Assembly (NCBI GenBank): GCA_027053355.1
Contig: JALUDX010000101.1
Span: 1 to 39,395, forward strand
Direction of reading: 5' to 3'
DNA length: 39,395 nucleotides
DNA from: Anaerolineales bacterium
GTDB lineage: Bacteria > Chloroflexota > Anaerolineae > Anaerolineales > DRMV01
The notes under the pieces were generated by a model that was given only the letters and a program-made list of their open reading frames with translations, searched no databases and had not been told where the DNA came from. This document shows positions 173 to 36,514 of the stretch, in pieces. The translations under genes were made by a program, and so were the position numbers. Every line of letters begins with the position of its first letter. Positions within the stretch are counted from its first letter, which is position 1.

Positions 173-829
173 CTACGACTGGGGGCTGCTCGGCAGGCGC
201 AAGAGCACGCGGGCCGGCGCGCCGTCGCTCCCCACCAGTTTGAGCGGCAGGCAACAGAGGTCGTAACGACCGGCGGGCACGGCCGAAAGGTCCAACGTCT
301 CGATGACCACCACCTCCGCGGCCAAAAGGGTGCGGTGCGTCGGGACGGGGTCGTCGAAGGGGGCTACCGAGAGGTAATCGACGCCCACCAAGCGCACGCC
401 CCGGGCGACCAACCAGGCCGCGGCGTCGGCAGTGAGGGCCGTGTAATCAGGGTGAAAGCGGGGGTCTTGCGCGGCCCACCAGGCCGAGTTGCGGGTTTTG
501 AAGAGCACCCGGCGGGCCTCCGGCGGGAGCGCCGCGGCTTCCAACACGGCCGCGGTGATGTGGCCTTCGACGTGCGTCAGGTCGACCACCCAGGCCTCGC
601 CCAGCAGCGCGTCCCAAGGCAGGCTTTCGGCCGTGGGGCCGTCGGCGATGAAATGGCGGGGCGCGTCGATGTGGGTGCCCAAGTGCACACAGCCGCCAAA
701 GCGGGAGACATTGGCCGGCTGCCCCTCTTCCATCTTGAGAAAACGCTCCAGCACCGGCTCGGGGTCTCCCGGCCACACCGGGACGCGGCCGGGGGCAATG
801 GGCACCGAGACGTCGTACACAGCAACCAT
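173..829 (-). CDS. Cyclase family protein (kynurenine formamidase-like)
   Basis: 218 aa; YDVSVPIAPGRVPVWPGDP ... HLGTHIDAPRHF ... typical of the cyclase family (HxGTHxDAPxH metal motif). Confidence 0.9.
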   Translation of the reverse strand: MVAVYDVSVPIAPGRVPVWPGDPEPVLERFLKMEEGQPANVSRFGGCVHLGTHIDAPRHFIADGPTAESLPWDALLGEAWVVDLTHVEGHITAAVLEAAALPPEARRVLFKTRNSAWWAAQDPRFHPDYTALTADAAAWLVARGVRLVGVDYLSVAPFDDPVPTHRTLLAAEVVVIETLDLSAVPAGRYDLCCLPLKLVGSDGAPARVLLRLPSSPQS

Positions 830-845
830 GGGGCCTCCTGGGGGG

Positions 846-1811
846 TTAGGGGGATTTCGACTTGGTGAGGAGGTACGAAATCACCAAAAAAGCAAGATCC
901 ACCAAAATACCGGCCAGCGCCCCCCGCCACGAGGGGCTGATCCATAAGGCCACGGCCAAAATGATGAGGGCGGCGGCCAACATCCAAAGGCCGGAGGGCC
1001 GCCACCGTCGCCCCTGGCGGGCTTCGCTCACTTCTTGCAGAGCCTGGCCCAATTCTTCCGGCCAATCAGGGTCGTTCTTGGACACAAAGGCATAAGGCGG
1101 CTCGACCCCCGGCGCGACGTCGAAGGCGCGTTGGATGTCTGCGGGGTTGTCGTGAGCGCTGAGGATGATGACCGGGATACCGGCTCGCGTGACTTCTCGG
1201 GCCAGGATCAAACCACCCCAATCCTCAGGGTTGTTTTCATCCTTCAAACGCACATCTATGATCGCGGCTTGGACGCCCCGCTGCTGCTGAATTTTAGAGC
1301 GGGCTTCTTGAACGGAAGCGGCCTTTACAGGGATGTAACCTCTCTGTTTGAGTGCATCTTCCAACGTGGCCGCAAATTCAGGGCCGTTCTCCACGAATAA
1401 AACTTTTCTTCCCTGTCGCTCCAGCACCTCTTTTAGCGCTGTATTCAATTCTTTTGCCCAATCGGGGCTGTTTTTAGAAACAAAGGCATAGGGCGGCTCG
1501 ACACCCAGTGGGGCGTCGAACGCGCGCCGGATATCTTCTCGCTTGTCATAGGCGCTGAGGATGATGACCGGAATATTGGCCTCGGTCACCCAACGCGCCA
1601 GAATCAAACCGCTCCAATCCTCGGGATTCTTTTCATCCTCCATACGGACATCCACAATGGCGGCTTTGATGCCTCGTTGCTTCTGGATTTTAGAGCGGGC
1701 TTCTTGAACAGAGGCGGCCTTTACAAGACGGTAACCTTTCTGCTTGAGCGCATCTTCCAGCGTTGAGGCAAAAATCGGGTCGTTCTCCACAGATAAGACT
1801 CTTGTGGTCAT
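846..1811 (-). CDS. Tandem receiver-domain protein (REC-REC) with C-terminal TM hairpin
   Basis: Two highly similar REC domains (RVLSVEND...AAIVDVRM...VIILSAYD...FVSKN and KVLFVENG...AAIIDVRL...VIILSAHD...FVSKN), then two hydrophobic segments (LWMLAAALIILAVALWI; ALAGILVDLAFLVISYLL). No DNA-binding output domain. Confidence 0.88.
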   Translation of the reverse strand: MTTRVLSVENDPIFASTLEDALKQKGYRLVKAASVQEARSKIQKQRGIKAAIVDVRMEDEKNPEDWSGLILARWVTEANIPVIILSAYDKREDIRRAFDAPLGVEPPYAFVSKNSPDWAKELNTALKEVLERQGRKVLFVENGPEFAATLEDALKQRGYIPVKAASVQEARSKIQQQRGVQAAIIDVRLKDENNPEDWGGLILAREVTRAGIPVIILSAHDNPADIQRAFDVAPGVEPPYAFVSKNDPDWPEELGQALQEVSEARQGRRWRPSGLWMLAAALIILAVALWISPSWRGALAGILVDLAFLVISYLLTKSKSP

Positions 1812-1830
1812 CGCGTTAACTCCTCCGTTT

Positions 1831-2535
1831 TCATCCCCAAATTCGAATAGACTTTATCTTCTGAATCAACCACAGCAAATCCTTGATGCTAAAACCCAAA
1901 CTCTCTACTGCCAAGATGCCCCACAACCCAAAGCATATCCAGAATAACGATCGCCAAACAGTGTCTGCATAAGGGAAAGTGGTCGAGATAGCCCAAACTT
2001 TGATTCTCTCAATCTCCGACTCAGGGGCCTGGTAACTTAAAGCGAGGGTTGTCTCTTTCAACCATGCAGGTGTGAACAAGTAACGCCCCCATGCTTTAAC
2101 TTGAACACGCGAATTCACGGAAACAGACCAATCACATCGCTCTTGGACAGGATGTCGAGGGGGGATAGGCGTAGCGGTTGGTAACGCGCACGTGTTCTGA
2201 TTGTTGTTTGTTGCACTAAAAAAGCGAAAAGGCGCGTTTTCATCGTCCATTACGCTAATGAATAAACGACCGGGGAGGGAGTGTCGGGCTGTAACGTCCA
2301 CAATGACATGCAGATCTGAGTCTGCAGGGTCCCACGGCGTTGGAGGGAAGGCAAGATTGTCTACCACCCCTTGGCCATGGGAAAACTCAACCCGAGTGGT
2401 GTGTTTAGTAGGGGCCGACACTATGCCACAGCGAAATTTGGGCAATCCATGGGTTGTGAGATACAGCAACAACAGAAATACAGCCACAGAGAATGCCCAA
2501 GCACCCGGCAACCAATGGATACTGATGTTTCGCAT
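1831..2535 (-). CDS. Hypothetical membrane protein: N-terminal TM, extracytoplasmic region, C-terminal TM
   Basis: Hydrophobic N-terminal (WAFSVAVFLLLLYLTT) and C-terminal (SLFWICFGLWGILAVESLGF) segments; ATG at 2535, with an upstream TTG start at 2553 possible. Confidence 0.65.
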   Translation of the reverse strand: MRNISIHWLPGAWAFSVAVFLLLLYLTTHGLPKFRCGIVSAPTKHTTRVEFSHGQGVVDNLAFPPTPWDPADSDLHVIVDVTARHSLPGRLFISVMDDENAPFRFFSATNNNQNTCALPTATPIPPRHPVQERCDWSVSVNSRVQVKAWGRYLFTPAWLKETTLALSYQAPESEIERIKVWAISTTFPYADTVWRSLFWICFGLWGILAVESLGFSIKDLLWLIQKIKSIRIWG

Positions 2536-2549
2536 TGTTTCTACCTTCC

Positions 2550-3224
2550 TCAAGTCTTACGACGGTCATGGAGCCAATTCTTTATTTTTGTTTTAGCCGA
2601 CTCGCAGCGCCAATAACAATAGAAAGAAGATATACCACCACCAACCAGACCTATGAGGGCAATGCCTAAAATTCTAGAAATCAACCCTGCAATCACAACA
2701 AGCGTTGCTATCGAGAGAAGAAGAAGCAACCGGTTGGAACAGGAAAGACCCTGCAGCCTCCACAATTGAGATTGTAAAACGAAAATTTCTTCAACAAGTT
2801 CTTGTGCCTCTGTTTGTTCTTCTTGGGCTTCTGGCATCAACCTCCAAAAATCACATTGTGGGGGAACGATATCCTTCGGTTTAAAATTTTTTTCTTGTGG
2901 GTCAGGGTATATCAAGCAGCCTATTGAAGAAAACCGGCACGACCATTTGGACTTTTGTTTATCAAGGCACCGCTCAATCCGCTCACGATGAGGAGTATGG
3001 TTGTCTTTTTTCAAAACGGCCCCTGAAAAGACAAAGATGGCTACAGGGAGGGCGAGAGACAATGAGCATCCGTTAGTCCTTCCAACATCCACAAGTTCGG
3101 AAGAAAAATCTCCCTCTTCCCCCATTTTTACTTCGAGCAACTTCTTGGTCTTCTTTTCCAGATTCTGATAATGCCCTTCTTCTTCTGAAGAGAAGACCCA
3201 CACCAAAGCCAAGTCTTTTGTCAT
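2550..3224 (-). CDS. Hypothetical protein: N-terminal alpha/beta domain (possibly TIR-like), helical linker, two C-terminal TM segments
   Basis: 224 aa; start overlaps the upstream kinase stop by 4 bp (ATGA). VWVFSSEEEGHYQNLEKKTKKLLE, LPVAIFVFSGAVL and SIGCLIYPDPQEKNFKPKDIVP resemble the order of TIR strands. Family assignment is tentative. Confidence 0.6.
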   Translation of the reverse strand: MTKDLALVWVFSSEEEGHYQNLEKKTKKLLEVKMGEEGDFSSELVDVGRTNGCSLSLALPVAIFVFSGAVLKKDNHTPHRERIERCLDKQKSKWSCRFSSIGCLIYPDPQEKNFKPKDIVPPQCDFWRLMPEAQEEQTEAQELVEEIFVLQSQLWRLQGLSCSNRLLLLLSIATLVVIAGLISRILGIALIGLVGGGISSFYCYWRCESAKTKIKNWLHDRRKT

Positions 3225-6200
3225 ACAATTTCCTCCACCACACCCTCTATGCTTTCGTGAAGATTTGTGCCACCGGTAGACAAACGCGGCAAAGTGAGCA
3301 CAATGGCCGTGCCTTCGGGGCCGGTACGCTCAATGTGCACTTTGCCGCCGTAAAACTGGGCCACAAAGGCGGTAATCAGCGCGCCCGTGCCGTGGCCCCG
3401 GGTCATCTCGGCCGGCACCCGGTCGTCGAAGAGATACGGGCGCACTTCCGCAGGGATGCCAGTGCCGTTGTCGGCTATTTTCAAAAACACCGATCCTCCC
3501 GTGGCGTTGCTCGTCAGGGTGACACGAGGGTTTCTCCCCTCTTTTCCCGCAGCCTGGGCGGCCGCGCGCGCCGCGTTGCTGAGCAAATTGTCCACCGCGC
3601 GGGTTAACCACAGCCGGTTGGCCCGCACCACGGCTTTGTCAGGGGCTCCCTCCAGTTGCAAGGTCACGGGCGAGCCCATTTTCTCCAGCCGCTGCTGCCA
3701 GCGGGTAACGATCTCTTCCAGCCAGGGGCGTACTTCGATGTTTTCCATCTGCTCATCCGGCGGCGGGAACGCGGGACGCTGTTCGCTGAAGATGGCCTGA
3801 ATCCGGTCGAGCCAACGGCAAATTTTCTCCAAATCGGGCACCACCCCCAACCGATGGGCCAGGCGCAGGGTTACCCCGCCTTTTCTTTCTTTTAGTTTTT
3901 TGCAAAACGGCAGGGTTTCCTCTTCCAAAAGGCCCAAGGTGCCCCGAAACGCTGCCAGTTCGTTCTTCCACTGGTGGCCGTAATCCGCGGCCGCGATGCC
4001 CAGCGCGGCCAACGCGGCCGCCAGCCGCCGCTGCCGGGCTTCCTGCTGTAGTGTACGTGCTTGCTCCCGCAACATCAGGGCCACCGCCATTTGCGAGGCT
4101 AAGGACTCCAGCACTTGCCGGTCGTAGAAATCCATGGCCATAGGGTCCCTGTACTCCACATTGAGGACACCAACCACCTCCCCCGTGGGCCACAGCACAG
4201 GGACGGCCATTTCGGCCACTGTATCCTCATGACAGGGCACGTAGTCGGGGTCTTGCGTGACGTCGGGAACGGTGACCGTGCTTTTTTCGAGGGCCGCGCG
4301 CACCACAATACCGTGCGGCTCGCCGGCCGGGGTTTGCAAAGGGAAACGCCGTCGTTTTTGAAACTGCGATTGTCGAGCCTGGGGAGACTGGTGGACTGCG
4401 ATCAATTCCAGCGCCTCGTCGCTCTTGGAAAACAAAGCAACCGCGCTCACCGCGCCGGGAGGGTCGTTCACCAGGTCAAAGGCGGTCTTGACCAACATTT
4501 CCAGCCCGCGTTCAGGCTGGTTGGGAATGCTTGCCGTGACCCCGAGGATTTTCTGCGCCCGCTGCTGGTCGCCCCAGGCGCCCAACGCGGTGGCCAGATC
4601 CTGAGCCACGCGCTCCAGGAAGGCCCGATCCTCTTCCTCGAAAAAGCGAGGCTGGGTAGCCTCAACGGTCAAAACGCCCAAGAGCCGGTCGCCCAAGAGA
4701 ATGGGCACGTCGATTTCGGAGCGGGTGATCGACCGCACAGGGAGGTAATGTTCGTCCTGCTCAGTATCAGGGGCATAGTATGGCCGCTTGTGTTCCGCGA
4801 CCCAGCCGCAGATGCCCTTCCCAAAAGGGATCTCCCGTGGTGGGGCGGTTTGACTCCCTTGCCGGTACATCTCCCACACTGATTCAGGAAAACGCAAACG
4901 CCGCGCCCCGTAATCCGCGTAGAGGATGCTCGGCGTGACCCTTCCATACCCCGTGGTAGGCCATTCTTCCTTCAACAAACGGGTAACCTCTTCTGCCAGA
5001 CGTTCTTCCAGTTTTTGCTGCCTTGCTGCAGCCGCTCCTCCTTGGCTTTTCTGGAGCACGCTTCGGATGGCCTGGGCAATTTTGCCATGCAACTGCCACC
5101 GTTTTTGGCTTCGGTGCTCCCGCGCGGCCATGAGAGCCACTCCTACAGCCATGGCCGCCTCCTGCCCCAAGGTGCGCAGTAAATTCTTTTCCTCTTCGGT
5201 GAAGTAATGGCGTTCCTTAATGTAATGCACCACCAGCACGCCCACCGGCCGAGCCTCGCCATCCTGGGTTAAGGTGAGCACCACGCCGCCGCTGGAACGC
5301 ACGTTGAATATCTGAACGAAATCTCCTTGAAAAACAGGATCCTGAGATGCGTCTTCGGCAAAATGTTCTTTTTGGGGCAGTTTCAACAATTTTTCCAAAG
5401 CGTCGTTTTCTGCTTTACAAGAATAAGCCTTAATGGCTTCTTCGTCCGGCAGCCCCAAACGCACCCGTTCCAGCAAAAACACCTCGCGCTGCGCGTCGTA
5501 AACGTGCAAGGTGACGATATCGGCGTGCAAGGCGCGCTTCACCCGGCCGGCAATCTCTGCCAACACGTCGGGCAACGGCTTTTCGAAGACGCTTTCCAGA
5601 AAAGCCCGATGGGCTTCTTCCTGCCGCCGGCGGGCCAGGGCCAGGCCGACGAGGGCCGCCAAGGTGGTCAAGGCCTCCCGCAGGCCCTGACCAAAGGGAA
5701 TGGGGGCATACCGCTGCACCGAAAGCACGCCTAAAATCTCATCTTGGGCAACAAGGGGCACCCCCACAAAGACTCGCGGCACCGGCTCGCGCACCTGGAT
5801 GGACGCCCCGTCAGGCAAGGGAGGACATGGGTCGTCGGCGCGCCAGCGAAGGCATTGCCACGCTTGACCGGAGCGAATGATATATCCCGTCGCGCCGCTT
5901 TTTGCTTTGGAGGAGGCCTGGCGCGGGGAGGGGGCTTTTTTATGTTTCTTCGAGTCGACGAAAAGGGGAAAGGTGATCGTGTCCGTGATTGCGTCGTATT
6001 CAGCCAGGTAATAAACAGAAACCCCAAACGCCTCTTCCAACGCGCTGCGCACCGCGTCATACACTGCCTTACGCGTGCGCGCGGCCAACAGTTTCTCTCC
6101 CGCCTCGCCCACGGCTTTGAACAGGGCCCGTTGGCGGTGCTGGTCAATGGCCGCACCCAGCAGCCGCGCCACCACCGACAATCCGGCTTCGAAACGCAGT

Positions 6201-7123
6201 CGTTCTTCCTCCGAGGAGGGTTCTTTTCCTACAGCCCATACCACGGCCAGGGGTTGCGGCGTCGCGGCGTCCTGTGTCGCCTCAGCCGTGTCCGGGAAGC
6301 CAAAAGGCTGGGGTCGGGGGGCAAAACAGAGATGAGCCTGCCAGTGTTTTTCCCCTTGGGGCTCTGAATACGACCGCGTCGGGTTACCCTGGCCTTTGTT
6401 CGCCCACAGGTCTGCCAAAAGCCCTTGCGCAATGCCCTGCGCAGTGATGTGGGGCGGGAGTTGCAAATCCTCCACGCCCTGTTCAGAGGCCAGTTGCCCC
6501 GTGGTGAGGTCGAGCAGGCCCACGGCCACCGCGTCCGCGTTCAAAAAAGCCGGCGCTTTCTGGACGACAGTGCGCAGCAGGTCCTCGAGGGTGGGTGCAG
6601 CCAGCAAAGCCTGCGAGAGTGCGGCCAGGGCTGCGGAAGCCAGGGCCTCTTCCTCGGCTTGAACAGCACGTTGTTTGAGTGCTTTACTCGACGATGGCTC
6701 TCGGCCCCGCCTTCGCCTTAAGCGCTTAAATTCCTCGATGAGTCGCTTCCGCTCGACCAGGTAGCGGAAGACCACTTCCGCCTCGGTATAATCGATGGGC
6801 TTTTCCAGAGACCAGAACGCGCCTTCACGAAGGGCCTGGCGGCCGATGGAACGATCCATGCCGGTGATCATGACCACCGGCAGGTCGGGATGCTCTTTTT
6901 TGATCCGTTTGAGCAACGCCATGCCGTCGAGGGGCCCTGCCAGGGCATAATCGATGATCACGCCATCATACGGGTGCTCGCTTATCTTTTCCAAGGCTTC
7001 CCCCGCGGTTGCCACTACGTCCACCGTGTAAGGGCCCAAGCCTTGCAACCACTCGGCAAAGTATTTGCTAAAGAGCCGGTCATCGTCGGCCAACAAGAAG
7101 CGGAAAGCAGGTTTTCGAGTCAT
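3221..7123 (-). CDS. REC - multiple GAF - histidine kinase (hybrid sensor kinase, 1300 aa)
   Basis: N-terminal REC (LLADDDRLF...GVIIDYALAGPLDGM...VMITGMD...EKPI), about five GAF-like repeats, H-box-like GHQWKNELAAFRG, N-box NLLSNAARAA, G-boxes DNGTGIP / GHGTGA. Confidence 0.92.
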   Translation of the reverse strand: MTRKPAFRFLLADDDRLFSKYFAEWLQGLGPYTVDVVATAGEALEKISEHPYDGVIIDYALAGPLDGMALLKRIKKEHPDLPVVMITGMDRSIGRQALREGAFWSLEKPIDYTEAEVVFRYLVERKRLIEEFKRLRRRRGREPSSSKALKQRAVQAEEEALASAALAALSQALLAAPTLEDLLRTVVQKAPAFLNADAVAVGLLDLTTGQLASEQGVEDLQLPPHITAQGIAQGLLADLWANKGQGNPTRSYSEPQGEKHWQAHLCFAPRPQPFGFPDTAEATQDAATPQPLAVVWAVGKEPSSEEERLRFEAGLSVVARLLGAAIDQHRQRALFKAVGEAGEKLLAARTRKAVYDAVRSALEEAFGVSVYYLAEYDAITDTITFPLFVDSKKHKKAPSPRQASSKAKSGATGYIIRSGQAWQCLRWRADDPCPPLPDGASIQVREPVPRVFVGVPLVAQDEILGVLSVQRYAPIPFGQGLREALTTLAALVGLALARRRQEEAHRAFLESVFEKPLPDVLAEIAGRVKRALHADIVTLHVYDAQREVFLLERVRLGLPDEEAIKAYSCKAENDALEKLLKLPQKEHFAEDASQDPVFQGDFVQIFNVRSSGGVVLTLTQDGEARPVGVLVVHYIKERHYFTEEEKNLLRTLGQEAAMAVGVALMAAREHRSQKRWQLHGKIAQAIRSVLQKSQGGAAAARQQKLEERLAEEVTRLLKEEWPTTGYGRVTPSILYADYGARRLRFPESVWEMYRQGSQTAPPREIPFGKGICGWVAEHKRPYYAPDTEQDEHYLPVRSITRSEIDVPILLGDRLLGVLTVEATQPRFFEEEDRAFLERVAQDLATALGAWGDQQRAQKILGVTASIPNQPERGLEMLVKTAFDLVNDPPGAVSAVALFSKSDEALELIAVHQSPQARQSQFQKRRRFPLQTPAGEPHGIVVRAALEKSTVTVPDVTQDPDYVPCHEDTVAEMAVPVLWPTGEVVGVLNVEYRDPMAMDFYDRQVLESLASQMAVALMLREQARTLQQEARQRRLAAALAALGIAAADYGHQWKNELAAFRGTLGLLEEETLPFCKKLKERKGGVTLRLAHRLGVVPDLEKICRWLDRIQAIFSEQRPAFPPPDEQMENIEVRPWLEEIVTRWQQRLEKMGSPVTLQLEGAPDKAVVRANRLWLTRAVDNLLSNAARAAAQAAGKEGRNPRVTLTSNATGGSVFLKIADNGTGIPAEVRPYLFDDRVPAEMTRGHGTGALITAFVAQFYGGKVHIERTGPEGTAIVLTLPRLSTGGTNLHESIEGVVEEIV

Positions 7124-7153
7124 TTCGTCCTTCCACGGGTGCAGGCCAGAGAC

Positions 7154-9505
7154 TCACGACTGCGTTTTATCAGTCGGCAGTTCCGGCAGGCGGACACGGA
7201 ATAACGAACCTACGCCCATCAGGCTACGCACCACCTGAATGTCGCCGCCCATGGCTTCGACCAGTTGTTTGGCCATGAAAAGCCCTAGGCCCGAGCCGCC
7301 TGGGCGTTGGGAATAGCCAAATTCATAGATCTTGTTGGAGCGGATGAGCGCATAATGCACCCCGGGTCCTGAATCGGCCACGTAAATGCGCAAAGGCAGG
7401 TGTTTGGGCGGCACGTAGCGGGTAGAAATGGTCACCTGGCGCAACGGCTTTACGACGCCGGGGCAAAAGGGGTCCTCCCTCGACCATTGAATGGCGTTCA
7501 AAATGATGTTGTCCAGCACCTGGCGCAGCCAGGTGGGGCTGAAATGGCCGGCCGGCATGTTTTCGTCGAGGGACAATTTCAAATCAATACCCCGATTCTG
7601 CGCCAAAGGGCGAAAGCGGAGCACGCTCTGCCGAATCAGGGCATGGATGTCGGTGGCCCGGCTTTCGTGCTTGTCTTCCAAAGCACGGAACGTTTCCAAG
7701 GTGCTTTTCATCTGCCGCGCGCCGGCCAGGATGTCCCCCACCTTGGAGGCAATCTCACCCATGAAATCCTGCACCACCCGGGAGTCGGTCTGGGCCGTCA
7801 GCGCGGCCATTTGCTGGTCGAGGCTGACCAAAACGGAGTTCAAAGCATTCAACGTATTGCGCACATCGTGCAGCGCGCCGGCGCGCAAGCGGGCGTTGAG
7901 GATGTCGCTTTGCGCTTGCTCCAATACCTGGACGAGAAACGGCTGCTCTAACAACACCCCTAAAACATGGCGAGTGTATAGCCGAATGGCCGGCGACCTA
8001 TGACCCGGCCGACGGGCAAATACGAAAAAGGCCATGGGTTTCTTCGACAAAGGCGGGGTCACGCGCCAACCCCAGGCCGCTTGATAGCCCCCTTGCACGG
8101 CCTGACGGAGGTAGCGGTCATAGCGGCTGGGGCTGTCCGTAATCGCCACCATGTGCCGCTCTTCTTTCAAAATCTCCCCAACCGGACTGTACCAGAGCAG
8201 GTGCAGGCTTTCGTCATCCTGCGCGATGTCGATGCCCCATTGGGCAACCACCTCGATTTTGCCCGGCTGGTCGGGAGAGATGGCAAAGATGGCTGCGCCT
8301 TCCATGCCCACCTGCTGAGCCACGTCGGCGATGAAAGCGCGCAAATCCTGGTCGGTGTAGGCTGGCTTTTCTTTGGCCGCCACCGTGAGCGGCGCTACGG
8401 GCGCTTGCGGCGGCTTGGTTTTCCGCGGCTGCTCTGAGGACGCGCGTTCCCAGCGGCGCAAATAGTCGGCGACTTCTTCCGCAAAAAACGGTTTGTATTC
8501 CAGGGTCAGCCCTTTGGCGCGCAGCCGCGCCTCCAGGGCAGCATCGGTCTCCGCACCAGAAAGCAAAAGCACGTGGCAGTGGGGCGCAGTCCTGCAAATT
8601 TCTTCTGCCCAGGGTGTGGTGTCGCCATCCGCGCCCAAGGTCAGGTCAAGAAAAACGCCGTCGAATGCCCCTTGGCGGAATTTTCGCTTCCCTTCTTGAA
8701 GGTCTGCCGCCGTTTCCACCGCGTAGCCCCAGTCGCGCAGCAAAGCGGCCATGTGCTGGCGGAAGAGGTCGTGGTCGTCCACCACCAAAAGCCGCCGAAT
8801 GCGCTGGGGTTCGGGCGGCGTCATGGTTTCAGGGACGTCTTTCAGCAACCGCTGCAGTTTGAGCCGGTCGGCCGGTCGGAGGTGGTCTGCCAAGGGGGCT
8901 TCGCCTGCTTGCTTTGCCTTGGCTTCTTCCACAAATTCTCCCAAGCGCTCCAGATATCGCTTGATGCTTAACCGCAGCCGGTAGGCTTCAGGGTCAAATT
9001 CGGTAACCACCACCTGCACCATATCGCCCGGCCAAAGGACCTCTTGCGCTTTGACTCTGCACAGGCTGATTTCTTCTACAGGGAGAAAGCCTTCTATCCT
9101 GGGTACCACCTCCCCCGGTGCCACCTCCCCAGGTGCCACCTCCACAAAAGCGCCGAACTCTCGCACCCGTTTGACGATGCCTTCGGCCACGACGCCTTCG
9201 TGGTATTTGTCGCGGTGAATTTCCCAAGGGTTGTGGTCGACAAACCGATGGCTCAGTTCGATGGGCGCGGTTTCGTCGTCCTCCACAGAGGTGAAGCGGG
9301 GCAACACCACCGCCTCCAACTTTTGCCCCACCTGAAACTTTTGGTGCAGGTCAGGGCGCTTGTCGTCCCAACTGACCTCCCGGCGGCGGATGATCCCCCT
9401 TTCCCCATTGGGCAAGCGCACGAAAAGTTTGGAAGGGACGATTTTCTCGATGCTAACCGTGACCTTCTCCCCCGGACGATAGTTTTCTCTACTCATCGTC
9501 TGCAC
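7154..9505 (-). CDS. S1 RNA-binding-like domains - REC - GAF-like - histidine kinase
   Basis: N-terminal S1-type motifs (GEKVTVSIEKIVPSKLFVRLPNGERGII; VVAEGIVKRVREFGAFVEV...IEGFLPVEEI), REC (LLVVDDHDLFRQ...GVFLDLTLG...LLLSGAE...YKPF), H-box LHDVRNTLNALNSV, G-boxes VADSGPGV / GGSGLGLFMAKQL. Probable start MSREN at 9496; overlaps the polA stop. Confidence 0.9.
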   Translation of the reverse strand: MQTMSRENYRPGEKVTVSIEKIVPSKLFVRLPNGERGIIRRREVSWDDKRPDLHQKFQVGQKLEAVVLPRFTSVEDDETAPIELSHRFVDHNPWEIHRDKYHEGVVAEGIVKRVREFGAFVEVAPGEVAPGEVVPRIEGFLPVEEISLCRVKAQEVLWPGDMVQVVVTEFDPEAYRLRLSIKRYLERLGEFVEEAKAKQAGEAPLADHLRPADRLKLQRLLKDVPETMTPPEPQRIRRLLVVDDHDLFRQHMAALLRDWGYAVETAADLQEGKRKFRQGAFDGVFLDLTLGADGDTTPWAEEICRTAPHCHVLLLSGAETDAALEARLRAKGLTLEYKPFFAEEVADYLRRWERASSEQPRKTKPPQAPVAPLTVAAKEKPAYTDQDLRAFIADVAQQVGMEGAAIFAISPDQPGKIEVVAQWGIDIAQDDESLHLLWYSPVGEILKEERHMVAITDSPSRYDRYLRQAVQGGYQAAWGWRVTPPLSKKPMAFFVFARRPGHRSPAIRLYTRHVLGVLLEQPFLVQVLEQAQSDILNARLRAGALHDVRNTLNALNSVLVSLDQQMAALTAQTDSRVVQDFMGEIASKVGDILAGARQMKSTLETFRALEDKHESRATDIHALIRQSVLRFRPLAQNRGIDLKLSLDENMPAGHFSPTWLRQVLDNIILNAIQWSREDPFCPGVVKPLRQVTISTRYVPPKHLPLRIYVADSGPGVHYALIRSNKIYEFGYSQRPGGSGLGLFMAKQLVEAMGGDIQVVRSLMGVGSLFRVRLPELPTDKTQS
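9102..9146 (-). repeat. 15-bp in-frame tandem repeat (x3) within the second S1 domain, encoding EVAPG-EVAPG-EVVPR
   Basis: ggtaccacctccccc / ggtgccacctcccca / ggtgccacctccaca. Confidence 0.9.
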
Positions 9506-12329
9506 CTCCGCGCAGTTCCCGGCTTTCCGTCCAAGGCGTCATCTCATCCCAATTCTTCCCCACCTTGGCGTCGGTGACCAGCGGCACGGCAAGGCGGTAG
9601 GCGTTTTCCATTTCGCTTTGCACCGCGCGGGCGACGTCGCTCAGCGCGTCTTCCGGCACTTCCAGCATCAGTTCGTCGTGCACCTGCAGCAGCATTTTGG
9701 CCGGCAGGCGGTCGGCTGCCAGGCGCTCAGCCACCCGCAGCATGGCCAGTTTCATGATGTCCGCCGCGGTGCCTTGAATAGGCGCGTTGATGGCTTCCCG
9801 CTCGGCGCGCAGGCGGGCGTTGCGGTTGGCGGGCTTCTGCAGTTCGGGGAAGTAGCGCCGCCGCCCCAGCAGGGTTTCCACATAGCCCTGCGCCGCGGCT
9901 TTGCGGCGGGTTGCCTCGATGTAGCGCTTCACGCCGGGGAAGCGCTTGAAGTAGGCTTCCACGAAGTTTTCGGCTTCGGCCAAAGTCAGGTCGGTGGTGC
10001 GGGTGAGGCCGAAGGGGCTCATGCCGTAAATCAGGCCGAAGTTGATGGCCTTGGCATGGCGGCGCATCTGCGGGGTGACTTCTTCCAGCGGCACGCCGTA
10101 AATGGCCGCTGCGGTCGCGGCGTGGATGTCTTGCCCGGCCCGGAAGGCGGCAATCATGGCCTCGTCGCCGGAAACATGCGCCACGATGCGCAGTTCCACC
10201 TGGGAATAGTCCACCGAGAGCAGCAGGTGGCCTTCGGGCGCGACGAAAGCCCGCCGCACCCGCCGCCCCACCGGCGTGCGCACAGGGATGTTCTGCAGGT
10301 TCGGGTCCGAAGACGCAATCCGCCCGGTGACCGTGCCGGTCTGGTTGTAGGAAGTGTGCACCCGCCCGGTTGCGGGGTTCACCTGCTGGGGCAGGGCGTC
10401 CACGTAGGTGGATTTGAGTTTCGCCAGTTCGCGGTGCTCTAACACCCAATCCACCACCTCGTGCTGGCCGCGCAGGGCTTCCAGCACGCTGGCTGAGGTG
10501 GAATAGTGCCCACTCTTGGTCTTGCGGGTGCGGTCGGGCGGCTGCAGCCCCAAAGTCTCGAACAAAATTTTGGAAAGTTGCCGGGTGGAGTTGATGTTGA
10601 AACGCTGCCCCACCGCGGCGTAAATTTGCTCTTCCAAGGCGCGCAACTGAGCGGCCAGTTCCTGCGACATGCGGGCGAGGAAGTCGGTGTCCACCAGGAT
10701 GCCGTTCATTTCCATGCGCGCCAGCACGGGCACCAAGGGCATTTCGATTTCCCGGAACAGCCGCCAGCCGTTGCGCTCGCGCACGTCGGCTTCCAGCAGA
10801 GGCATCAGGCGCAGGGTCATCACCGCATCGGCCGCGGCGTAGGGCGCGGCCTTGGCCACCGGCACCTCGGCCATGCTGATTTGCTTCTTGCCTTTGCCGA
10901 TGAGGGCGGTAATGTCGGTCATTTCCACGCCGAGGCGCGTCCAGGCTAAGTTCTTCAGCCCCAAATTGTGGGAAGCCGGGTCACGCACCCACTCGGCAAT
11001 CATGGTATCGAAGGCGGGCGTGCTCATGGGCAGGCCGTGGCGGGCCAGCACCACCAGGTCGTATTTGATGTTGTGCCCCACCTTGGCCACCTGCGGGTCG
11101 GCTAAGAAGGGCGCGAGCGCGGCGCGGACGTGTTCCCACGGCAGTTGCGCCTCGCCGGTGCGGTGCCCCACGGGGATGTAAAAGCCCTCGCCCTCGTCCA
11201 CCGCGAGGGAAACGCCCACCAGGTCGGCGCGCATTTTGTCGGTGGCGGTGGTTTCGGTGTCGATGGCTACGGTGCGGGCGACCTTCAGGCGGCGGGTAAG
11301 GGCCTGCAATGCTTCCGGGGAATCCACCACGGTGGTGCGGAAGCCTAAATCGGGCGGGGGGGAAGCCGCGCCTGCCGTGCCCGCGGCGGCCTGCCCGCCG
11401 AACAGGGCAAGTTGCTGGGGTTCGTCCCCTTCCCCGCCCGCGGCCTGCTGCCATGCCCGCAGGCGCTTGAGCAGGGAGCGGAACTCCAGTTCCCGGAACA
11501 GGGCTTCCACCGCACCCACGGCGTCGGGGCGGGGCACGGCCTGGGCAAGGTCCACGGCCACCTCCAGGTCGGTGCGGATGCGGGCCAGGTCCCGGCTCAG
11601 GTAGGCGTTGTGGCGGTCGGCTTCCAGTTTGCGGCGGATGCCGGGGGCGAGTTCGTCCAAATGGGCGTAAATGCCGTCCAAAGTGTCGTATTTTTGCAGC
11701 AGTTTGGCCGCGGTTTTCTCGCCAATGCCCCGCACGCCAGGGATGTTGTCGGATTTGTCGCCCACCAGCGCCTTGAAATCCACAATCTGGTCGGGCCGCA
11801 CGCCGTATTTGGCTTTCACCTTTTCGGGGGTGTAGTCGGTGGTATCCGAAAGTTGCCGCCCGGGCAGGGAAACGATGATCCGCTCGTCCACCAGTTGCAG
11901 CAGGTCCCGGTCGCCGGTGACGATTTTCACCCCCATGCCCTCACTTTGAGCCAGGCGTTTGGCCGCGCTGCCCAGCACGTCGTCGGCTTCGTAGCCCTCC
12001 CTTTCCAGCCGCGGGAAGCCGAACGCGTCCACCAGTTGGCGGATGCGCGCCATCTGGGGCACCAAATCCTCGGGCATTTTGGCGCGGGTAGCCTTGTATT
12101 CGGGGTAGATCTCGTCGCGGAAGGTGCGCCCGACGTCGAAAGCCACGGCCAGGTAATCGGGGTGCTCCTGTTCCAAAAGCCGTAGCAAAATGCTGGCAAA
12201 GCCATAAGCGGCCGCGGTAGGCTCCCCCTGGCTGTTGCGCCAGCGGTCGCCGCCGGTGCCCGCGGTGAGGGCAAAATAGGCGCGGTAGGCCAACGCGTGG
12301 CCGTCGAGCAAGTAGATGGTGGGGGGCAT
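9489..12329 (-). CDS. polA: DNA polymerase I (5' nuclease, 3'-5' exonuclease, polymerase)
   Basis: LLDGHALAYRAYFAL start; VAIDTETTATD exonuclease motif; LSVDYSQVELRIVAHVSGD; RRHAKAINFGLIYGMSPFGL; LLQVHDELMLEVP. Confidence 0.98.
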   Translation of the reverse strand: MPPTIYLLDGHALAYRAYFALTAGTGGDRWRNSQGEPTAAAYGFASILLRLLEQEHPDYLAVAFDVGRTFRDEIYPEYKATRAKMPEDLVPQMARIRQLVDAFGFPRLEREGYEADDVLGSAAKRLAQSEGMGVKIVTGDRDLLQLVDERIIVSLPGRQLSDTTDYTPEKVKAKYGVRPDQIVDFKALVGDKSDNIPGVRGIGEKTAAKLLQKYDTLDGIYAHLDELAPGIRRKLEADRHNAYLSRDLARIRTDLEVAVDLAQAVPRPDAVGAVEALFRELEFRSLLKRLRAWQQAAGGEGDEPQQLALFGGQAAAGTAGAASPPPDLGFRTTVVDSPEALQALTRRLKVARTVAIDTETTATDKMRADLVGVSLAVDEGEGFYIPVGHRTGEAQLPWEHVRAALAPFLADPQVAKVGHNIKYDLVVLARHGLPMSTPAFDTMIAEWVRDPASHNLGLKNLAWTRLGVEMTDITALIGKGKKQISMAEVPVAKAAPYAAADAVMTLRLMPLLEADVRERNGWRLFREIEMPLVPVLARMEMNGILVDTDFLARMSQELAAQLRALEEQIYAAVGQRFNINSTRQLSKILFETLGLQPPDRTRKTKSGHYSTSASVLEALRGQHEVVDWVLEHRELAKLKSTYVDALPQQVNPATGRVHTSYNQTGTVTGRIASSDPNLQNIPVRTPVGRRVRRAFVAPEGHLLLSVDYSQVELRIVAHVSGDEAMIAAFRAGQDIHAATAAAIYGVPLEEVTPQMRRHAKAINFGLIYGMSPFGLTRTTDLTLAEAENFVEAYFKRFPGVKRYIEATRRKAAAQGYVETLLGRRRYFPELQKPANRNARLRAEREAINAPIQGTAADIMKLAMLRVAERLAADRLPAKMLLQVHDELMLEVPEDALSDVARAVQSEMENAYRLAVPLVTDAKVGKNWDEMTPWTESRELRGGADDE

Positions 12330-34911: not shown

Positions 34912-35796
34912 ATGCTTGGAGCGGATGATATGGGCATTGTCGCAAAACCAATGTTAGGCGATTGCAGGGAAGTGTTGAAAACCCTGCCTGACGACTCGAT
35001 CGATCTGGTCGTCACTTCGCCCCCTTACGCGGACAGGCGCAAACATACCTATGGCGGCGTTGCACCAGATGATTATGTTGCATGGTTTCTGCCCATTAGC
35101 GCCGAAATCAAGCGGGTATTGAAGCCTACAGGGACGTTCATCCTCAATATCAAAGAACGGGTTGTCAATGGGGAGCGCCACACTTACGTGTTGGAACTCA
35201 TCCTTGCTATGCGACAGCAAGGATGGCTGTGGACGGAAGAATTTATTTGGCATAAGAAAAACTCATATCCCGGCAAATGGCCCAATCGTTTTCGGGATGC
35301 ATGGGAGCGGTTGTTACAGTTCAATAAACAGCGTAAGTTCAATATGTATCAGGAAGCAGTCATGATACCGGTGGGCGATTGGGCACAAAAACGCCTGCGG
35401 AGGTTAAGCCCAACAGATAAGGTGCGCGACGTCTCGCGGGTGGGGAGTGGTTTTGGAAAACGGGTAGCAAATTGGGTGGGCAGAGAGAGGGTATATCCCA
35501 CCAATGTATTACATTTAGCAACAGAGACAAGAAATCGCCGCCATAGTGCCGTTTTCCCTGAGGCGTTGCCCGAATTTTTTATAAAATTGTTTACCAGAGA
35601 GGGAGATTGGGTGTTAGACCCTTTTATGGGGTCGGGAACGACTTTAAAGGTGGCCTATCGCTTGCGCCGCAATTCCATTGGCATCGATATTATGCCCGAA
35701 TACTACGAAATGGTACAGCGTGCTTTGGCATCTATGCAGCCGTACCTTTTGGAGCCTGAAGGAGTGTACGATGACGGGCAAACCTCTCGATCTTGA
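34912..35796 (+). CDS. DNA methyltransferase (TSPPY type; N4-cytosine or N6-adenine, beta-class motif order)
   Basis: LPDDSIDLVVTSPPYADRR (motif IV) ... EFFIKLFTREGDWVLDPFMGSGTTLKVAYRLRRNSIGIDI (motifs X-I). Confidence 0.95.
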   Translation: MLGADDMGIVAKPMLGDCREVLKTLPDDSIDLVVTSPPYADRRKHTYGGVAPDDYVAWFLPISAEIKRVLKPTGTFILNIKERVVNGERHTYVLELILAMRQQGWLWTEEFIWHKKNSYPGKWPNRFRDAWERLLQFNKQRKFNMYQEAVMIPVGDWAQKRLRRLSPTDKVRDVSRVGSGFGKRVANWVGRERVYPTNVLHLATETRNRRHSAVFPEALPEFFIKLFTREGDWVLDPFMGSGTTLKVAYRLRRNSIGIDIMPEYYEMVQRALASMQPYLLEPEGVYDDGQTSRS

Positions 35797-36514
35797 GTTG
35801 GTGGAGCAATATGTCGCTTCGCACATTTCTGTTTTTCATCAACGCCGTTTAGAGAGCCTCAAAAAACTGAGCCTGCGTAGAATTTTGAAGCGGAAAAACC
35901 CTTATCTGTTCCGTGCTAAGAACATTTTGACGGCAGAGGCATTGGTGAAAGGAATTTTGGACGCCCATTTGTCTTCGCAAGAAGAAACGCTTTTTGGTGA
36001 ATTTTTGGAAGACCTGAGCATCTTTGTTTGTGAGCAAGTATTTGGCGGACACAAATCCACGGCCGAAGGAATTGACCTGGAATTTCAACGAAGCGGCGTG
36101 TACTATATCGTCTCGATTAAATCGGGGCCAAATTGGGGAAACTACAGCCAGATTGAGCGAATGCGCCGCAATTTCAAACAGGCGGCCAAACGATTACGGC
36201 AGAATAAGGGCTTTACCATGCCCATTCAGGCAGTCAACGGTTGCGCCTACGGGAAGGACAGCAAGCCCGACAAGGGAGATTACTTCAAGTATTGTGGACA
36301 ACGCTTTTGGGAACTTGTTTCAGGCAATGAGCGGCTGTATCTGGATATTATCAAACCTTTGGGCTATCGGGCCAAAGAGAGGAACGAGGAATTTCAAGAG
36401 GCGTATGCCGCTCTGGTAAACCAGTTTAGCCTGGAATTGTTGCAAGAGTTTTGTTTGCCCACCGGCCAGATAGATTGGAACAAACTTGTCGCTTACAACG
36501 CAGCGGCTGCGTGA
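35771..36514 (+). CDS. Type II restriction endonuclease (PmeII-like family)
   Basis: Overlaps the methyltransferase 3' end by 26 nt. SSQEETLFGEFLEDLSIFVCEQVFGGHKSTAEGIDLEFQRSGVYYIVSIKSGPNWGNYSQIERMRRNFKQA is consistent with a PD-(D/E)xK-type core (GIDLEF...SIKSG) and recalled PmeII-like sequences. Confidence 0.75.
   Translation: MTGKPLDLELVEQYVASHISVFHQRRLESLKKLSLRRILKRKNPYLFRAKNILTAEALVKGILDAHLSSQEETLFGEFLEDLSIFVCEQVFGGHKSTAEGIDLEFQRSGVYYIVSIKSGPNWGNYSQIERMRRNFKQAAKRLRQNKGFTMPIQAVNGCAYGKDSKPDKGDYFKYCGQRFWELVSGNERLYLDIIKPLGYRAKERNEEFQEAYAALVNQFSLELLQEFCLPTGQIDWNKLVAYNAAAA

Follow-up and report, generated by a model that had tools for sequence, protein, structure and literature searches.

Five closely packed genes at positions 846–9505 of a 39,395-nucleotide stretch from an Anaerolineales bacterium (assembly GCA_027053355.1, contig JALUDX010000101.1; this whole stretch is called the window) encode two large histidine kinases (HKs) and three membrane-associated proteins, and raise the question of what the kinases control. 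A first-pass annotation had proposed that the five genes form a self-contained phosphorelay cassette leading from cytosolic sensing to membrane outputs. We find that the two kinases, here k1 and k2, belong to a recurring pair, and we consider it rather probable that they form a cytosolic His-Asp phosphorelay hub with exchangeable receiver-borne outputs, membrane-directed in the window, and that this hub serves as a stress, conflict or cell-fate switch. The hub with swappable receiver-borne outputs is the well-supported part of this reading; the conflict or cell-fate role is one that we infer.

The k1–k2 kinase pair

The k1 protein had been described as S1-REC-HK. All three elements were recovered, with two S1 domains (3.9e-18), a receiver (REC; 3e-11) and HATPase_c (1.9e-14) in Pfam, and a GAF-like region recognized through relatives and alignments corrects the architecture to S1-S1-REC-GAF-HK. 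The S1 pair is of RNA-binding type, and its best match was ribosomal protein S1, rpsA (TIGR00717, 3.4e-30). Pfam assigned a REC, five GAF domains and HATPase_c to k2.

We searched 400 genomes of the order with a k1 profile, a phylum sample of 400 genomes, and a species-genome collection that was scanned once with one short peptide pattern; most assemblies were fragmented and metagenome-derived. Full-length k1 relatives were present in 24 of the 400 genomes of the order, the phylum sample added G357 (same class) and G405 and G432 (same phylum only), and the species-genome scan added four loci, including Caldilineales and Thermoflexales records. k1 is thus a recurring family that extends to other classes of Chloroflexota. 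Of the 28 loci whose sequence extends past k1, 27 have a REC-(GAF)n-HK gene, k2, immediately after it in the same orientation, and the pairing is far beyond chance because it recurs across these 28 loci. The exception was G645, where a 1957-residue GAF-rich protein follows k1 and a kinase gene lies further along. In G720 and G738, k2 was split by frame breaks. Long open frames in G758 and G512 had suggested k1–k2 fusions, which were rejected when the genes proved separate on checking. The window belongs to the family as defined by an S1-S1-REC-GAF-HK protein followed by a REC-GAF-HK protein.

Residues required for phosphotransfer were retained. Among 30 aligned k1 proteins, the phosphoacceptor H546 was invariant (30/30), the receiver residues D287 and K338 were found in 29 and 28 sequences, respectively, and both N-box asparagines in 29; the IRxRE motif of the first S1 domain was present in every alignment row reaching that region. 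The H-box and N-box of k2 were conserved with those of its relatives, and the phosphoacceptor histidine was kept in every aligned row except G645. By sequence, therefore, the relay appears intact. Compared to their counterparts in G003, the window proteins were 93% (k1) and 88% (k2) identical, with frames open in both genomes.

Three further observations concern k1. Relative to G003, the second S1 domain of the window protein is longer by 10 inserted residues, which show a VAPGEV tandem repeat. Proteins matching the REC-GAF-HK part of k1 without S1 domains were found in G669, G322, G637, G035, G621 and G736 (for example, L200). At L065:8377-9147 (G053:C41), a lone truncated S1-S1-REC fragment lies next to a transposase-like gene and is likely to be a disrupted copy.

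Outputs in relatives and in the window

The commonest arrangement among relatives was Band7, p369, k1, k2, REC-TCAD9 (an APH-like kinase) and AAA. In the one subclade with this six-gene operon, wherever the sequence reached far enough upstream, p369 preceded k1 in 16 of 16 loci and Band7 did so in 15 of 15. TCAD9 matches downstream of k1–k2 (3e-22 to 5e-28) were well over the Pfam cut-off; Band_7 matches were over it in G357 and G665 and under it in G137 and G750, the latter two proteins being mutually homologous by BLAST. The catalytic elements HGDLHxDN and D[FY]ER of the APH-like domain were intact in all 15 sampled outputs of this REC-TCAD9 clade (clade I). The p369 protein (~370 residues, between Band7 and k1; L112:14241-15350) was conserved and had no match in Pfam, NCBIfam, PADLOC or PDB. 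At one such operon (L189:14414-19001, G512:C71) we also observed a second, convergent receiver array with a kinase piece, including a REC-APH-like copy whose loop reads HGDLYGYN.

Other relatives carried different outputs. In G405, the REC-TCAD9 protein has a caspase domain (Peptidase_C14, 8.9e-20) at its end, and the next protein joins nSTAND (nSTAND1, 7.6e-7) to a winged helix-turn-helix (wHTH). In G022, L103 and L105, the APH-like loop was lost and a wHTH fused, giving REC-pseudokinase-wHTH proteins, as also in G030, which lacks k1; G022 additionally encodes a two-transmembrane REC-CyanoTRADDas_TM protein (1.3e-7). G039 has a REC-REC protein followed by a wHTH-like protein (weak match). These receiver-bearing outputs directly downstream, together with the k1–k2 pairing and intact H-, N- and G-boxes and receiver aspartates, form the basis for the hub.

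The window has its own set of outputs (Table 1). The coordinates, shared orientation and spacings of the five genes were confirmed: k1 and k2 are separated by 30 bp, k2 and p224 share a 4-bp ATGA overlap, and 14 bp separate p224 from the 234-residue gene (a 4-bp overlap if an alternative TTG start at 2553, giving 240 residues, replaces the ATG), which ends 19 bp before the REC-REC-2TM gene. The cyclase gene follows after 16 bp, and k1 shares 17 bp with the 3′ end of polA. No terminator-like hairpin was found on the coding strand of the cassette's intergenic regions, which is consistent with an operon but is not proof of one. In line with the first-pass annotation, no DNA-binding domain turned up among the five proteins.

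Table 1. Genes of the cassette and its flanks in the window.
Feature	Position	Strand	Basis or remark
k1 (S1-S1-REC-GAF-HK, 783 aa, GTG start)	7154..9505	-	Pfam and alignments
k2 (REC-(GAF)5-HK, 1300 aa)	3221..7123	-	Pfam
p224 (224-aa protein)	2550..3224	-	hydropathy and family scans; no homologue found
234-aa bitopic membrane protein (transmembrane segment, beta-rich middle, transmembrane segment)	1831..2535	-	hydropathy; no homologue found
REC-REC-2TM (two-transmembrane; 321 aa)	846..1811	-	Pfam and hydropathy
polA (flanking housekeeping gene, outside the system; marks the insertion side)	9489..12329	-	
Putative cyclase (PF04199; flanking, outside the system)	173..829	-	elsewhere in relatives; G+C 0.70

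The predicted REC-REC-2TM protein was borne out by Pfam, which found both receivers, and by hydropathy, which placed a two-helix hairpin at residues 273–315. Both receivers have aspartate and lysine motifs (VDVRM/SKN and IDVRL/SKN). The two halves are closely similar as protein and 77% identical over 300 nt as DNA, pointing to a recent internal duplication. Similar receivers occur in output genes of G022 and G030, and the window's own hairpins had no CyanoTRADDas match. In G018, where k1 is missing, a GAF kinase is followed by a tandem REC-LuxR regulator, and G040 looks similar by eye; the window protein resembles a tandem receiver of this REC-LuxR type in which the helix-turn-helix may have been exchanged for a membrane hairpin.

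The remaining two proteins are orphans. The 234-residue protein has transmembrane segments at 6–24 and 197–215 by hydropathy, in agreement with its earlier description as bitopic. The p224 protein has an N-terminal alpha/beta-looking part, a long helix and, by hydropathy, a hydrophobic C-terminal stretch. Neither p224 nor the 234/240-residue protein had a credible match in Pfam, NCBIfam or PADLOC, and searches of 350 genomes of the order for each returned only chance-level matches. Because the mean predicted local distance difference test score (pLDDT) of both AlphaFold models was near 56, no fold call is possible for either. The p224 model (mean pLDDT 56) had the order beta-alpha-alpha-beta-alpha-beta, and Foldseek gave a best E of 0.54 with no TIR domain among the matches; the proposed TIR-like identity of p224 was likewise unsupported by hmmscan, PADLOC and phmmer against PDB. 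Foldseek matches of the 234-residue model (viral capsid proteins and others) were dismissed, as the TM-score was ≤ ~0.35 on a low-confidence model. The first-pass phosphorelay cassette is therefore upheld for the kinases, which recur together with conserved phosphoacceptors and receiver-bearing outputs, but not as a conserved five-gene unit. The lack of a conserved neighborhood in other genomes, which that annotation had named as grounds for refutation, was contradicted for the kinases and borne out for p224 and the 234-residue gene.

Elsewhere in the window, at 34912-36514 on the plus strand, a TSPPY-type DNA methyltransferase gene and an overlapping PmeII-like restriction endonuclease gene, both recognized by eye, make a probable type II restriction-modification pair.

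Readings of the locus

In the model we favor, k1 (S1 pair, receiver, GAF, kinase) and k2 (receiver, GAF array, kinase) form the conserved input hub. They would use their N-terminal receivers to exchange phosphoryl groups, which would then reach the terminal receivers of the outputs; the direction of phosphate flow is something we infer. The common output is a REC-TCAD9 kinase (HGDLHxDN, DFE), which one locus fuses to a caspase, accompanied by an AAA/nSTAND NTPase and by an SPFH/Band7 protein, and in a second form an APH-like domain without its catalytic loop carries a wHTH. In the window, a REC-REC protein on a membrane hairpin and two orphan membrane proteins fill this slot, so that phosphorylation would change how a membrane complex assembles. 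The conflict-type domains of relatives, the patchy distribution and the output swapping suggest that the most likely purpose would be tightly gated switching in stress, conflict or cell fate.

A narrower version, a conflict or programmed-death switch gated by the relay, is tentative, and we give it less than an even prospect. In it, k1 would use its S1 domains to sense the state of RNA or ribosomes under attack, small-molecule signals would be integrated by k2, and the receivers, once phosphorylated, would directly trigger exchangeable killers. The killers would be an APH-like kinase with a caspase or nSTAND and, in the window, the membrane-hairpin complex. If correct, this switch would provide the missing histidine kinases of the receivers reported in conflict systems. 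The k1–k2 loci in any case offer a concrete, testable link between two-component signaling and conflict-type effectors in Chloroflexota, and RNA or ribosome state could feed directly into a phosphorelay through ribosomal-S1-like domains on a kinase.

Several observations weigh against a conflict or cell-fate role or complicate its application to the window. Outputs with a wHTH occurred in 7 of ~26 related loci with a readable output (the wHTH-bearing cases being G022, L103, L105, G357, G405, G512, weakly G039, and k1-less G030), an ending also usual for transcriptional regulators, and the flanks of related loci were mostly metabolic, not defense islands. Pfam and PADLOC scans found no conflict-type domain in the window's own outputs, and the six-gene Band7-p369-k1-k2-TCAD9-AAA operon could equally serve a stress response. 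In the k1 tree, the window branch is 2.56 changes per site long and the clades part at a weakly supported midpoint root, so the window's exact position is uncertain. The earlier likeness to conflict or cell-fate systems holds for the domain content of relatives (caspase, nSTAND, TCAD9, CyanoTRADDas), but not for their genomic surroundings. A "DpdF" gene near the G756 locus was read as a RecQ-type helicase, with no sign of a defense island. These points could instead reflect an ordinary stress or metabolic phosphorelay, in which the S1 and GAF domains respond to translation state and small ligands, and the outputs (wHTH regulators, AAA ATPases and kinases) tune gene expression and membrane physiology with no part in conflict. 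The tandem REC-LuxR regulators noted above would fit such a relay, as would the PADLOC results: k1, k2, p369 and Band7 had no system match beyond receiver overlaps, the window proteins had none beyond receiver overlaps with SduA and PD-T4-6, and a single caspase matched in one relative. We nevertheless think this alternative unlikely, given the conflict-type output domains, the patchy occurrence, a G+C that is both low and uneven, wholesale replacement of outputs, and a window set that lacks a DNA-binding domain.

G+C and the polA side bear on how the locus arose. In the window's genus, the pair was found only in G000 and G003. In G003, whose contig ends inside k2, it lies 1.6 kb behind polA, past two small genes; the same two genes follow polA in G002 (one was called in G004), and both genomes lack the cassette. 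G+C fell from 0.655 in polA to 0.60 in the kinases, 0.56 in REC-REC-2TM, 0.491 in the 234-residue gene and 0.437 in p224. These steps, each resting on single genes, and the polA-side comparison fit an acquired cassette with orphan genes of separate origin; no full-length relative was found on a plasmid or virus. It could then be that only the kinases, perhaps with REC-REC-2TM, belong together and that the two orphans are recent, unrelated arrivals, as their G+C, well below that of their neighbors, their lack of credible homologues and the failure to find p224 in G003 would suggest. Against this stand the ATGA overlap and 14-bp gap in a co-directional run, the membrane association of all three late products, and output swapping as the family rule, and we judge this account improbable. 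That the window copy is a decaying remnant that lost a standard effector is more doubtful by far: degraded copies do exist (the G053 fragment and the broken frames of G738 and G720), but all five window frames are open, the kinase residues are kept, and identity to G003 is high.

Comparison with known systems

Like ribosomal protein S1, k1 has consecutive S1 domains, two of them at its N-terminus; unlike that protein, its S1 pair is fused to REC-GAF-HK and its first S1 domain carries IRxRE. Hybrid-kinase phosphorelays such as Rcs and multi-kinase relays use serial REC and HK modules. The k1–k2 hub shares this serial layout, the H-box, the N- and G-boxes and receiver aspartates, but differs in that both kinases are soluble, the receivers lie ahead of the kinase core, one kinase bears S1 domains, and the place of a single transcription factor is taken by kinase, caspase, NTPase or membrane proteins as outputs. 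In the searchable open-access literature, we found no description of the Band7-p369-k1-k2-REC-TCAD9-AAA operon and no paper that brings S1 domains together with histidine kinases and the outputs seen here.

Also close are the ternary conflict systems and their NTP-dependent relatives in multicellular prokaryotes (Kaur et al., 2020, PMC7159879; Kaur et al., 2021, PMC8195603), with which these loci share exchangeable effectors, Chloroflexi hosts, and caspase, STAND NTPase, APH-like kinase, receiver and TRADD-associated domains. Of the effector domains of that type, TCAD9, C14, nSTAND1 and CyanoTRADDas_TM occurred in relatives and were absent by sequence from the window outputs. Neither the window cassette nor the scanned core operon proteins included a MoxR-vWA pair, and relatives have AAA or nSTAND proteins instead. 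The vWA-associated conflict effectors include receivers but no histidine kinases (Kaur et al., 2020), and conflict-system receivers have been described as occurring independently of histidine kinases (Kaur et al., 2021), whereas two histidine kinases head the k1–k2 operon. Because published surveys report such receivers without histidine kinases, the kinase-led conflict-type arrangement appears to be a new element.

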